Of a stretch of 64,000 bases of DNA, positions 48,991 through 55,418 are shown piece after piece. Position 1 is the first letter of the stretch, and every line of letters starts with the position of its first letter. The DNA comes from Crassaminicella profunda (GTDB taxonomy: Bacteria; Bacillota; Clostridia; Peptostreptococcales; Thermotaleaceae): contig NZ_CP082326.1 in the NCBI RefSeq assembly GCF_019884785.1, forward strand, positions 3,961,355 to 4,025,354. The letters are read 5' to 3'. The notes below the pieces were generated by a model. The model did not search any database and was not told where the DNA came from. It worked only from the letters and a program-made list of their open reading frames with translations. A program made the position numbers and the translations under genes.

Positions 48991-49695
48991 CTAATCTATA
49001 TACGCTATTAATTCTTGTACCAACTTATATACATTATTTCCTGGATTCATTTTTGATTCCGTATTCAGTCCTTCTTCTAAATATATTTTTTCTAATTTTA
49101 CACTTCTTTCTATTGCCTTTTGCATATCTCCATATTTACATAAAATATCAAAAATATTTTCTAAATTCTTTTCATACCTCCCTTTATTTAGTCCAAATTT
49201 CTTAAAATAATGATTTAGCTTATCTATATATTGATAACGATGTATTGCAGTATTTAAAAATTCAAAATGTAAAACAAACCACAATTCAATTGCTTCATTA
49301 GACCATCCTACATGAAATCCTTTTGCTTGTGCTTGGTATATTGCATTGTTAAATTGTTCATCTAAAAAGTCATCCTTATCAAAAACTACCCACACATTAC
49401 CATAGGGTAATTCTCCTTGATTTTTCAACCTCTCTAATTCACCTATCGTAAATTTAACTAAATCTTGTGTATTTCTACCCGTTCCAATAACCTTTATATC
49501 ATCTATTTTTTCTTTTACTTTTATAGCATCCGTATATTTTTCATTTATTTTATTTTTTATGCCTTCAAAATACTTTGGTTCTGTCTTTTTTCCTTCACAT
49601 ACAATTAAATATCTATATGGAGCAAGTTTTTTGCTATTTTCTTTTCTCTTCTTTCTATTCCCTTTTCTTTTTTTAAATAGATCATCACTTCCCAT
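48991..49695 (-). CDS. RloB-like protein (AbiL-type defence partner)
   Basis: A 234-residue protein. A very basic start (FKKRKGNRKKRKENSKK) leads into the RloB core: YRYLIVCEGKKTEPKYFEGI, then WVVFDKDDF and GFHVGWSNEAIELWFVLHF. This is the RloB/Toprim-like domain; the E in CEGKKTE and the DKD pair are the likely metal-binding residues. RloB is normally the partner of the RloA ATPase; the pair corresponds to the AbiL abortive-infection type, with RloB as the presumed nuclease effector. It overlaps the ATPase gene by 11 bases. It is the last gene of the outer element. Confidence 0.85.
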   Translation of the reverse strand: MGSDDLFKKRKGNRKKRKENSKKLAPYRYLIVCEGKKTEPKYFEGIKNKINEKYTDAIKVKEKIDDIKVIGTGRNTQDLVKFTIGELERLKNQGELPYGNVWVVFDKDDFLDEQFNNAIYQAQAKGFHVGWSNEAIELWFVLHFEFLNTAIHRYQYIDKLNHYFKKFGLNKGRYEKNLENIFDILCKYGDMQKAIERSVKLEKIYLEEGLNTESKMNPGNNVYKLVQELIAYID

Positions 49696-50935
49696 TTGAT
49701 CCCTCCATCAACTCAAACTCTTTTAATAGTGGGACTGCTCCATATCGACCTAATAAATAATCTTTATTGTAAGTAGCATCATTTCTAACCTTTTTATCAT
49801 CATCTAGTCGATATTCAACTAAGGAAAATAAATTAGAAACACCATTATCATCTTTTTCAGCAAACCATATTTGATCTCTTCTAAACGTTTCTTTTGTCAA
49901 AGTGTATATATCATGTGTAGTATATATTAATTGTGCATTCTTTTTATTGATGGAAGAATTATGAAACATATTAATAATATATCTTAATAATAATGGATGT
50001 ATTTTAGCATCTAGTTCATCTATAAATAAGGTATTCCCTTCTTCTAATGTTTCTATTAAAAAATCATATAGGCAAAACATTTTTTGTGTTCCACTCGATT
50101 CTTCAGTAAAAGGAATTTCCATAAATTCTTCACTATCTAACTGCTTGTGCCTTGAATATACTTTATAAGAAATTTCTCCTTCCTCATCTCTTACATTTTT
50201 AATTTCTTCAATCCTTATACCATCTATCCCCGTATCTATAGCTTTTAAAAACTTTTCACAATTCCTTCTATAAGTTTCATCTTTAAATTTTTCAACAGGT
50301 AATAATCTAGAAATAAAACTTTCAAGTAATGCGTTTCCAAAGTCAATAACTTGTGTATCTAAAAACCATTTAAATACATTTTTCGCTTGCTGAATTTTGG
50401 CACTAGAAATAAACGATAAAAATAAAGTAGATTCTTCTACTAGGTCTTTAAATTTTTCAGCATCTTTCATTTTATTTCCACAATGAATCTGACTTTCATT
50501 TCTTTCAAACAGAGTATCATATTGATTACCTTTTTTGCTAGACTTACTATATAGCCACTCTTGATAAACTTTTGTATGATCCACTACAAATCCATATTGG
50601 TACTCTATATCCCCCAATATGAAAAACACTTCAAATTCAGCTGTCCCTTTTTTACTTGTTTTATCAAATAAAAATCTCTTTACTGGTATTCCTTTTCCTT
50701 CTCCTACTCGTTTAAAAGATTCTAAAACAAAAAATCTCATAAAGTTGAATGCTTCAATCAATCCAGACTTTCCACTAGCATTGGCACCATATATAGCTGC
50801 TACTTTTAAATACTGATCTTTATTATTTATTTCTATTAAATTGTATGGATGTTCTTTAATAGAAGTTGCTGTCATATCTAAACTCGTTTCTTCTTTATAT
50901 GATTTATGATTCCTAAAATTAAATTGAATTATCAT
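49685..50935 (-). CDS. RloA-like AAA ATPase (AbiL-type defence partner)
   Basis: About 416 residues of the SMC/OLD-like AAA_15 group. MIIQFNFRNHKSYKEETSLDM is typical at the start (quoted in part: FNFRNHKSYKEE). Walker A is GANASGKS (50-57), the signature region reads ESSGTQKMF, Walker B is LFIDELDAKIHPLL and the switch His lies in LIYTTHDIYTL. Together with RloB it forms a two-gene unit known from phage-defence islands; the ATPase probably senses the phage and controls the RloB effector. The GTG at 50944 lies in the ribosome site AGAGGTG; ATG 50933-50935, 6 bases further, is the real start. Confidence 0.88.
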   Translation of the reverse strand: MIIQFNFRNHKSYKEETSLDMTATSIKEHPYNLIEINNKDQYLKVAAIYGANASGKSGLIEAFNFMRFFVLESFKRVGEGKGIPVKRFLFDKTSKKGTAEFEVFFILGDIEYQYGFVVDHTKVYQEWLYSKSSKKGNQYDTLFERNESQIHCGNKMKDAEKFKDLVEESTLFLSFISSAKIQQAKNVFKWFLDTQVIDFGNALLESFISRLLPVEKFKDETYRRNCEKFLKAIDTGIDGIRIEEIKNVRDEEGEISYKVYSRHKQLDSEEFMEIPFTEESSGTQKMFCLYDFLIETLEEGNTLFIDELDAKIHPLLLRYIINMFHNSSINKKNAQLIYTTHDIYTLTKETFRRDQIWFAEKDDNGVSNLFSLVEYRLDDDKKVRNDATYNKDYLLGRYGAVPLLKEFELMEGSNGK

Positions 50936-51103
50936 TTTTCTCACCTCTTTATATTATTTTACTATATTTTATTGTATTTTTATATGTTTTTGAGATATTT
51001 TCTCATGTTTTATATTATAATTAATTGTATTGTTTTTATACTATAAATGTATGTGTATTAGAGAAAATAACTAATTCAATTTTAATTTTCTAATTTATTA
51101 TAA

Positions 51104-53417: not shown

Positions 53418-53676
53418 ACCTTTATCCCCACTCACACTGTATTATCTACCCTTATAGTTTTTTGTGATAAGCTTCTACACTCAATCTATTATATGAATAT
53501 TTTACCATATCAAGCAATATCTCTCTACAAGAACTTTAAATATATATCACATTCATACTTTAATCTATCCTTTATTACTTTTTCTTACCTATAACTATAT
53601 TAACTCCTATTTCATCACCAACACATTAATCTATAAACCCCTTTCCTTGCAATCCCTAACACACACACAATCCTCT

Positions 53677-53855
53677 ACGACGTCCTTTTGACGTCGAAAC
53701 GACGACGACAACTAGTATTTTTTAGAAACAACTAGCAACTAACTAAAAATCCCCCACAAAACAAAAAACCTCACCTTCCTTGAAATCTAAGGAAAGTAAG
53801 GCTATTTTCTGGTGCACCCGAGAGGATTCGAACCTCCGACGCACGGTTTAGGAAA
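53677..53855 (-). repeat. Att-type repeat copy 3: element end, terminator and 3' half of the intact tRNA-Arg
   Basis: The tRNA-side junction of the array. It matches 47158-47334 and, in part, 48711-48809. Its left part has GACGTCG and ACGACGACG motifs, candidate arm sites. The 3' half of the working tRNA lies in it. Confidence 0.88.
53769..53801 (-). terminator. tRNA-Arg terminator
   Basis: Thirteen-bp stem (53769-53781 with 53789-53801, two G-T pairs), 7-base loop, and a T-run on the minus strand. The same hairpin with compensating changes is kept in copies 1 and 2. Confidence 0.85.
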
Positions 53856-53885
53856 CCGACGCTCTATCCCCTGAGCTACGGGTGC
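53813..53885 (-). tRNA. tRNA-Arg (anticodon CCT)
   Basis: A 73-base cloverleaf: acceptor GCACCCG/CGGGTGC with A73, D arm GCTC/GAGC, anticodon loop TTCCTAA (CCT), T arm GGAGG/CCTCT with loop TTCGAAT. No encoded CCA. It reads AGG codons. Its 3' half is the target of the integrated elements, and the gene is intact because the last element restored it. Confidence 0.96.
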
Positions 53886-53930: not shown

Positions 53931-54215
53931 CTATAATACACTGATTCCTTGTATTTCTATTTGTTTAATCAATAAATAATTTCTAAGGACGAATCTTAAG
54001 GTGTCTTCTACGCGAGCACCCTTATAGACATATACATGAAAACCATCTACTTCAAATGAATCATACTCTTCTAAATTCGTTGGTTTCTTAGCCCTAACAT
54101 AGGGCATAGGTGTACGAGATCAACATATTGAACTTACTTGAAGTTTTACAGCTAAAGTATCTTGATTCTTTTTCATTAAGTACTCTTTTAATTTTTCTTC
54201 TATAATTATCTTCAA
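53931..54215 (-). CDS. CC/Se-motif family selenoprotein with in-frame TGA (Sec32)
   Basis: Ninety-four residues if TGA at 54120-54122 is read as selenocysteine. Before it: KIIIEEKLKEYLMKKNQDTL and AVKLQVSSIC; after it: SRTPMPYVRAKKPTNLEEYD, then FEVDGFHVYVYKG and LRNYLLIKQIEIQGI. The C-U pair after a V-S-S-I strand, the R-x-x-K-P step and the VDGxxVYV block fit the CC/Se-motif small redox family, where the second position is Cys or Sec. The frame is open on both sides of the TGA, and a SECIS hairpin follows it. Start TTG 54213-54215 with AGGATGAGG upstream is preferred; ATG at 54224 is possible. It starts 24 bases after the D,D-carboxypeptidase stop. Function unknown, probably thiol/selenol redox. 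Confidence 0.82.
54091..54122 (-). promoter_or_regulatory. Bacterial SECIS element after the Sec TGA
   Basis: The stem GCCCTA/TAGGGC (54100-54105 with 54091-54096) has a 3-base loop TGT (54097-54099) with a G in its first two positions. The loop starts 20 bases after the TGA. This matches the known bacterial SECIS rules (16-37 bases, short upper stem, G near loop start). Confidence 0.8.
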
Positions 54216-54239
54216 GTACCTCATCCTTTCCATATGATC

Positions 54240-55418
54240 TTACATAATATTAGCAATAAGACTTGAAAAAATGGACCAGAACTTTTTTATAAATACTTTA
54301 AAAGGAATCTTTTTCACATCTCGATCACTAATTAAATCCATTGTTATGACTTTATCATTATAGAGTGTAACCTTCACTTCTCCAAGCTTTTGTCCTTTTA
54401 CAACAGGAAAGGGCATTGTATCTAATAGAGAAATTTCTCTACTCTTTTCTATTGCATTCTTTTGTCCAAAGGCCCAAGCATTTTCCTTAGCCAAAAGCTC
54501 AATTGGAAGCTCTTTTGCTCCCCATAATTTTATTTCTTGAATAGGCTCTTCTACGTTTATAATTCTTTTTTTCATAAAATTAGCGACTCCATAATTTAAA
54601 AGCCTCTCACTTTCATGAACTCTATTCCAATCACTTTTCGTTCCAAGTACAACAGAAATCAATCTAAAATCTTGTTCATTTTCATCCTTTTTCTTTACAT
54701 TCATGGTAGAAGTTAAACAAAATCCTGCTTCACTGGTATATCCTGTTTTTAATCCATCTACCTCAGGTATGATCTTTAACAATCCATTGGTACTTTTCTT
54801 ATAAAAATTTCTCTCTGGGTTTTGATAAAATTCTTGATCTGTAAGAGGTAGGAGTTCTTCTTTATGATGCTGAATGATGTATTTTGCCAATATGCCTATA
54901 TCCTTGGCCGTCATCATATTACCTTCCCCTTTTTCTGGCATACCATTAGGATTTACAAAGTTTGTATTTACCATTCCTAACTCTTTGGCTTTTGCATTCA
55001 TCATCTTTACGAAGCTTTCCATGCTGCTACCTACATGCTCTGCAATGGCAAAGGCTGCATCATTTGCAGATACAATCATCATGGCCTCCATAAGCTCACT
55101 CAGTTTTATAGTTTCTCCAGCTTTTAATCTATAACTTGCTCCTTTTTCATTTGCTGCTCTATCACTTATAGTTACTAGATCATTCATAGAAACCTTTCCC
55201 TTTTCTACAGCTTCTATAGCAACAAGATAAGTCATTAATTTTGTAATACTAGCTGGTGCAAATCTTTCTTCTACATTTTTAGAAAATAATATTTCTCCTG
55301 ACGTCTCTTCCATAAGTAATGCTGCTCTTGCATTCACTTTAACTTTAGCATCTGCAAAACTAGATGGACTAGCAAGTAGTAAAATACATGTGATTATAAT
55401 TGCTATATATCTTCTCAA
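54240..55418 (-). CDS. D-alanyl-D-alanine carboxypeptidase (DacF-type)
   Basis: A 392-residue secreted serine peptidase (S11). Signal peptide (1-23). Active-site motifs: S57-I-T-K60 in RFAPASITKLMTYL, S117-A-N in MIVSANDAAF, and K224-T-G in EVDGLKTGYTSEAG. It trims the last D-Ala from peptidoglycan stems and is membrane-held by its C-terminal helix (about 372-392, FIKKFWSIFSSLIANIM). The length is normal. The start is TTG with GGGGGAAG upstream. It is followed after 24 bases by the selenoprotein gene. Confidence 0.94.
   Translation of the reverse strand: MRRYIAIIITCILLLASPSSFADAKVKVNARAALLMEETSGEILFSKNVEERFAPASITKLMTYLVAIEAVEKGKVSMNDLVTISDRAANEKGASYRLKAGETIKLSELMEAMMIVSANDAAFAIAEHVGSSMESFVKMMNAKAKELGMVNTNFVNPNGMPEKGEGNMMTAKDIGILAKYIIQHHKEELLPLTDQEFYQNPERNFYKKSTNGLLKIIPEVDGLKTGYTSEAGFCLTSTMNVKKKDENEQDFRLISVVLGTKSDWNRVHESERLLNYGVANFMKKRIINVEEPIQEIKLWGAKELPIELLAKENAWAFGQKNAIEKSREISLLDTMPFPVVKGQKLGEVKVTLYNDKVITMDLISDRDVKKIPFKVFIKKFWSIFSSLIANIM

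Follow-up and report, generated by a model that had tools for sequence, protein, structure and literature searches.

A predicted selenoprotein of the CC/Se motif family with an in-frame UGA between dac and tRNA-Arg in Crassaminicella profunda

Our analysis of a 64,000-nucleotide stretch of Crassaminicella profunda DNA (the window) centers on a small minus-strand gene that very probably encodes a 94-residue selenoprotein of the CC/Se motif family (NCBIfam NF041239). Judging from the gene, its relatives, and the genome around it, the UGA at codon 32 would be decoded as selenocysteine (Sec) by the genome's own SelA, SelB, SelD, and tRNA-Sec, guided by a hairpin with its loop 20 nt past the UGA. 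The gene extends a known but uncharacterised selenoprotein family by one new member, and to the family we add a fold assignment, a locus history, and a group of relatives with tandem UGA codons; the fold, the arsenic neighbors, and the UGA-UGA members may already be in print. The features of the locus are as follows.

54240..55418, minus strand: dac, D-Ala-D-Ala carboxypeptidase-like, directly upstream (best match 164 bits, under the narrow equivalog cut-offs)
54219..54227, minus strand: Shine-Dalgarno-like AGGATGAGG, assigned by eye from this sequence and the regions upstream of the orthologues
53931..54215, minus strand: predicted CC/Se motif family selenoprotein gene, 94 residues, TTG start, TAG stop, Sec at residue 32
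54123..54125, minus strand: TGT, Cys31, vicinal partner of Sec32
54120..54122, minus strand: in-frame TGA, predicted Sec codon (U32)
54091..54105, minus strand: SECIS-like hairpin GCCCTA-TGT-TAGGGC
53810..53885, minus strand: tRNA-Arg (CCT), downstream

The translation (LKIIIEEKL...SSICUSRTPMPY...GISVL, with TGA as U) contains a single TGA, directly after Cys31, and runs on to the TAG stop, which bears out the preliminary description of a small gene split by one TGA between dac and tRNA-Arg. That description had also placed the gene 24 bases after dac, which is exactly the gap to the dac ORF, and a further 45 bases separate the end of the gene from the tRNA. The TTG start at 54215 aligns with the ATG of the Cys orthologues, and in-frame ATGs at 54224 and 54233 may serve as alternative starts. 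The preliminary description named no strand; a plus-strand reading of 53931-54215 was rejected on account of several stops and the lack of a frame. Under the standard code, no ORF of at least 60 aa is listed at 53931-54215, so that an ordinary gene caller would likely miss the gene, in line with the earlier expectation that such programs report nothing or fragments.

Assignment to the family rests on a near full-length profile match. With U entered as C, the translation scores 54.3 bits against NF041239 ("CC/Se motif family (seleno)protein", also Moor_selen_rel), for which the curated cut-off is 40 bits, and covers model positions 2-90 of 91; this is the family-model search that had been proposed for the CC/Se claim, and its outcome supports it. 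The family trait, a CC motif in which Sec can replace Cys, is seen in the window protein as C31-U32. No other NCBIfam family was reported for the protein at E-values up to 10, and a Pfam search returned no match. In the accessible part of a 2026 review, the CC/Se family is entered as a hypothetical protein predicted in Moorella thermoacetica, with no stated function or fold (PMC13188914), and our literature search found no study of its function. Of the label "unannotated selenoprotein" given to the gene at first, the second word is supported; since the family is already in NCBIfam and in that part of the review, the first fits at most the window record.

We then turn to the question of whether the TGA is read through. 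A single scan yielded seven orthologues, two from Marinisporobacter, one from Thermotalea, two from Geosporobacter, and two from Anaerosolibacter. At the site of codon 32, the Marinisporobacter and Thermotalea genes (loci L090, L091, and L096) carry TGA like the window gene, and the four Geosporobacter and Anaerosolibacter genes (L092-L095) carry TGT; the comparison of homologues asked for at the outset thus gives TGA (three) or Cys (four) and no random stops. The window protein is 76% and 74% identical to its two Marinisporobacter relatives over the full length. Among the three pairs formed by the window and Marinisporobacter genes, dN/dS downstream of the TGA (62 codons) is 0.15, 0.19, and 0.16; before the TGA it is 0.45-0.66, a range based on only 30 codons with 1-4 synonymous changes. 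The codons downstream of the TGA are under purifying selection, and readthrough is strongly supported. We accordingly regard it as very improbable that the TGA is a true stop, with the gene either a pseudogene or coding for just a 31-residue peptide with untranslated DNA behind it. Such a stop would fit the lack of a standard-code ORF of at least 60 aa and the dispensability of the gene, which is missing from the same locus in five related genomes, but it is at odds with the low dN/dS past the TGA, with the retention of the TGA in the window gene, both Marinisporobacter genes, and Thermotalea, with the Cys orthologues, and with a hairpin at the right distance and a full Sec machinery in the genome, both described below.

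The bacterial SECIS rules, as given in the accessible part of the review, specify a loop of 3-9 nt, a stem of 4-16 bp, a G in the first two loop bases, a UGA-to-loop distance of 16-37 nt, and an MFE of at most -7.5 (PMC13188914). The window hairpin agrees with them: it has a loop of 3 nt (UGU), a stem of 6 bp, a distance of 20 nt, and an energy of -7.5 kcal/mol, which is just at the limit. The preliminary description was thus right about the 6-bp stem, the TGT loop, and the agreement with the rules, while its "20 bases after the TGA" holds for the start of the loop and not for that of the stem, which begins 14 nt after the TGA. The window contains 2414 TGAs, counted on both strands and in any frame with the codon-32 TGA included, and 0.62% of them are followed by a hairpin that is as good by the same rules. 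The 76-nt stretch around the TGA folds no better than its shuffles (z -0.57, with 49 of 200 as good). Among the orthologues, the same stem, extended by a seventh pair, is present in L090 and L091. In L096, which also carries Sec, the hairpin is a different one and its loop lies at 37 nt. Of the four Cys orthologues, two have no hairpin after the position that matches the TGA and two have weak 4-pair ones (-2.6 and -1.4 kcal/mol), and the Geosporobacter gene of genome G010 would have a hairpin of -5.9 if counted from the preceding Cys codon. Across the family, 22 of the 54 members with Sec have a hairpin of -5 kcal/mol or lower after the TGA, where same-locus TGAs lead to an expectation of 2.35. 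In 52 of the 54, the 50 nt that follow the TGA have a more stable fold than the average same-locus control. With the strict form of the rule, 22 of the 54 have no hairpin or one weaker than -3 kcal/mol.

The genome holds all the genes needed to decode such a codon. Matches to selA (639 bits), selB (404 bits), and selD (401 bits, with an in-frame TGA of its own) lie within about 6 kb, and about 7 kb from selB lies selC, whose tRNA-Sec scores 74.5 bits against a gathering score of 47 and is called tRNA-SeC(tca) by ARAGORN. The working Sec system that the gene had been taken to imply, and for which a search had been suggested, is hence represented by selA, selB, selC, and selD. In a wider set of 118 genomes, consisting of the window genome and its relatives, NF041239 has 114 matches (72 above the cut-off) in 64 genomes. 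At least one TGA-bearing match is present in 56 of these 64, and selA in 53 of the 56; the three TGA-bearing genomes lacking selA are 63-79% complete. For this tally, TGAs were counted inside each match, and TGA position was examined for the aligned matches only. G099, which has sub-threshold selA matches only and no listed CC/Se match, was counted among the 97 selA-positive genomes, and G116, found in neither the selA-positive nor the selA-negative list, was counted as selA-negative. These data bear on a further explanation, by which the TGA is read as another amino acid through a near-cognate tRNA or general suppression. We give it very little weight: tRNA-Sec and SelB are present, the site is Cys in other orthologues, plain readthrough needs no hairpin at SECIS distance, and in G023, a genome with no selA match at an estimated completeness of 100%, the only family match lacks a TGA and falls under the family cut-off. 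The selenoprotein reading, by comparison, draws support from the family match, the hairpin, the Sec machinery, the Cys and Sec orthologues, and the selection past the TGA.

The window genome holds a second CC/Se gene with a TGA, of the GGUGCGN type (L050:5001-5300), near which lie a gene that matches 4-hydroxyphenylacetate 3-monooxygenase below the cut-off and one for an unnamed protein of 455 residues. It also encodes a HesB-like selenoprotein with an in-frame TGA (L144).

The position of the gene is well conserved. tRNA-Arg (CCT) lies downstream in all eight loci (the window and the seven orthologous ones), and dac is the next gene upstream in seven of the eight, the ORF list of Thermotalea having no dac there. 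The preliminary description had considered dac an unexpected neighbor; within this bacterial family the arrangement is not odd. In the more distant G020 and G042, the gene immediately upstream is a homologue of the aminopeptidase-like one found two genes upstream in the window. In five further genomes of the bacterial family, dac is followed by tRNA-Arg with no recognisable CC/Se gene between them; the search for dac in eight genomes met many paralogues, and the five loci with at least 50% identity were inspected (L172-L176), none of them from G004, G006, or G009. No convincing gene remnants were found after dac in the five genomes, the best tblastn match (E 0.003) being on the opposite strand and beyond the tRNA. 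The position is thus old, the gene is dispensable, and dac can do without it; no functional tie to the cell wall follows. One could imagine a thiol/selenol oxidoreductase acting together with dac, for instance in shielding cell-wall enzymes, as the recurrent dac neighbor would allow and the 24-base gap, suggestive of one transcript, would favor. We consider this improbable in view of the five genomes with dac and tRNA-Arg alone, the different neighbors in other subfamilies, and a translation that by eye has no signal-like N-terminus. The link to dac is more likely to reflect a stable genome position than a shared pathway.

Two observations concern the DNA beyond the tRNA. The stretch at about 53640-53809, after tRNA-Arg, contains a GACGTC-type repeat and is by eye strikingly similar in other genera of the bacterial family (L173, L176). 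Further on, at 48991-50944 on the minus strand, two adjacent ORFs resemble by eye the RloA/RloB ATPase pair, possibly within an inserted or defence region.

What might the protein look like? We predicted its structure with AlphaFold2 from an 8-row alignment, with Cys replacing Sec. The five models have pLDDT values of 85.6, 73.5, 71.0, 59.5, and 59.1, of which only the best is good, with 70-75 around the motif. The top ten PDB chains found by Foldseek are IscA (four), SufA (two), a putative Fe-S biosynthesis protein, DsrR, AQ_1857, and hi1723, the last two being structural-genomics entries that we take to be HesB-type; the E-values run from 5.1e-4 to 0.53 at the tenth chain, and only one of 131 matches is below 0.001. 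VIA-align places the model against IscA with Z 8.2 over 89 residues, a value near the level of common arrangements, and IscA and SufA fill its first four rows. At the profile level, hhalign against 22 HesB-like proteins of relatives (21 with a TGA) gives a score of 58.9 and a probability of 97.2%, compared with at most 16.6 in 60 column-shuffled comparisons; its E-values are for single comparisons and not database E-values. Against IscA alone the match is weak (45%), so that the link to IscA is argued through the HesB-like proteins, and a PDB sequence search with the 8-row profile matched no chain. When tested against the HesB-like selenoprotein model TIGR01911, one of five members with two consecutive Sec codons (UU) matches, weakly (E 0.0027); the window protein gives no match at E-values up to 10 and has no UxGP motif. 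In the profile alignment, Cys31, the residue ahead of the window Sec, stands opposite the HesB Sec; it is also aligned with Cys35 of E. coli IscA. Taken together, the predictions make the CC/Se family a distant relative of HesB/IscA: the protein would take the HesB/IscA (A-type carrier) fold, with Cys31-Sec32 at the place of IscA Cys35. Cys35 is one of the cluster or metal ligands of IscA, together with the C-terminal CxC. The window protein has zero Cys after residue 32, and hence the IscA C-terminal CxC is missing from it; among the A-type carrier traits, the fold is found on the predicted model and the set of Cys35 plus CxC is not. Five CC/Se members (L069, L076, L082, L168, and L169) retain CLCGG or CLCSGG at the C-terminus, where it resembles the CxC of IscA.

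Seventy-one of the 114 family matches (67 above the cut-off, four below) could be compared in an alignment of the motif. A TGA falls within the CC motif in 54 of the 71, and 17 have Cys only; by eye, the Sec codons of the 71 members fall in two neighboring motif columns. The 54 Sec forms comprise 21 CU, 16 UC, 15 with Sec and no adjacent Cys, and two UU, and the 17 Cys forms comprise 14 CC and three with a single Cys. On the family tree, which rests on few columns and has many unresolved forks, at least nine Sec/Cys changes are needed. The window gene is placed with the Marinisporobacter genes (100/100), and this group is joined next by the Cys forms of Geosporobacter (95/85).

A tandem UGA-UGA motif was seen at eight loci (L202-L209, in G014, G010, G005, G012, G092, G157, G052, and G096), in 8 of 297 genomes covered by the search; Geosporobacter ferrireducens has one such gene. 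A hairpin with a GGT loop can be made out by eye at every one of the eight, 21 nt beyond the second TGA, and between L207 and L209 a C-G pair of this hairpin is changed to T-A. If both UGAs are read as Sec, a vicinal diselenol would be served by one hairpin. Our literature search, at the level of listings, found no bacterial UGA-UGA case elsewhere.

The neighbors of other subfamilies offer a hint to function. Neighbor clusters were built with our own ORF caller and BLAST clustering, and one member was scanned per named cluster: the ACR3 member reaches 384.6 bits, over the cut-off; the arsenate-reductase member is arsenate-reductase-like, under the equivalog cut-offs; and the ArsR member, which comes from a UU locus, is an ArsR-type metalloregulator. 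In four genomes (G017, G077, G097, and G106), a UC-type gene follows an ArsR-cluster gene and has an ACR3-cluster gene next or second downstream, with an arsenate-reductase-cluster gene in between in G017 and G106; in G056, an arsenate-reductase-cluster gene lies downstream of the UC-type gene. The loci of these UC-type genes beside arsenic-resistance-like genes in five genomes are L100, L051, L106, L109, and L052. Within the UC-type clade, 5 of 13 loci adjoin ACR3- or arsenate-reductase-cluster genes and 8 have neither; the six of family f7 have other neighbors. Six KRCU/KNCU-type genes follow genes for FAD-dependent proteins, and no ACR3 or arsenate-reductase gene lies beside the window gene.

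It is tempting to speculate that the window protein would not carry Fe-S clusters as IscA does, and that its vicinal Cys31-Sec32 pair would instead serve either to capture soft metal(loid)s, As(III) and Hg(II) among them, or as a redox switch that cycles through a selenylsulphide. We put this forward as a tentative reading, somewhat short of even odds. A vicinal Cys-Sec pair on a HesB fold without the C-terminal ligands appears better suited to metal(loid)s or a selenylsulphide than to an Fe-S cluster, and the metal(loid) idea stems from the 5 of 13 UC-type clade loci beside arsenic genes, a clade that is another subfamily than that of the window gene. The alternative, that the protein carries iron-sulphur clusters as an IscA-like A-type carrier and Sec provides one of the ligands, seems unlikely to us. 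The predicted fold and the profile match to IscA/HesB speak for it, as do the five members that keep a C-terminal end like the CGCG of IscA and a NifU/NfuA-like gene, scored under the curated cut-offs, at L065, where a relative of the second CC/Se gene of the window genome lies; the absence of any Cys past residue 32, and with it of a C-terminal CxC, speaks against it for the window protein.

Extending the metal(loid) reading to the whole family yields a picture that we hold a little more loosely still. CC/Se proteins may form a clan of HesB/IscA fold in which Sec has moved between two adjacent positions (CU, UC, UU) and which captures soft metal(loid)s rather than building Fe-S clusters. The UGA-UGA branch, with its one hairpin, would then make a vicinal diselenol, and the window gene would represent the CU form.

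Ordinary annotation would easily lose or cut this gene. With it the family gains a well-supported member whose Sec and Cys orthologues share a single locus in a single bacterial family, and these paired orthologues (Sec in Marinisporobacter, Cys in Geosporobacter) lend themselves to the question of what Sec contributes. The predicted fold, together with the neighbors of the relatives, provides a first testable idea for the function of the CC/Se family.

In comparison with known systems, the window protein is closest to NF041239, with which it shares the near full-length profile match, the CC/Se motif, and Sec inside the motif. The motif listed for the CC/Se family in a table within the accessible part of the review is CxxU (PMC13188914), whereas the window protein has a vicinal CU. 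The A-type carriers IscA and SufA have the same predicted fold, and Cys31 is matched to IscA Cys35, but they differ in the C-terminal CxC that the window protein does not have, and its profile is without a sequence match to solved chains. With the HesB-like selenoprotein of TIGR01911, finally, it shares its size, the predicted fold, and a Sec in the corresponding loop, one residue off; TIGR01911 is distinguished by a UGGP motif and a C-terminal Cys, the window protein by the motif CUSR.
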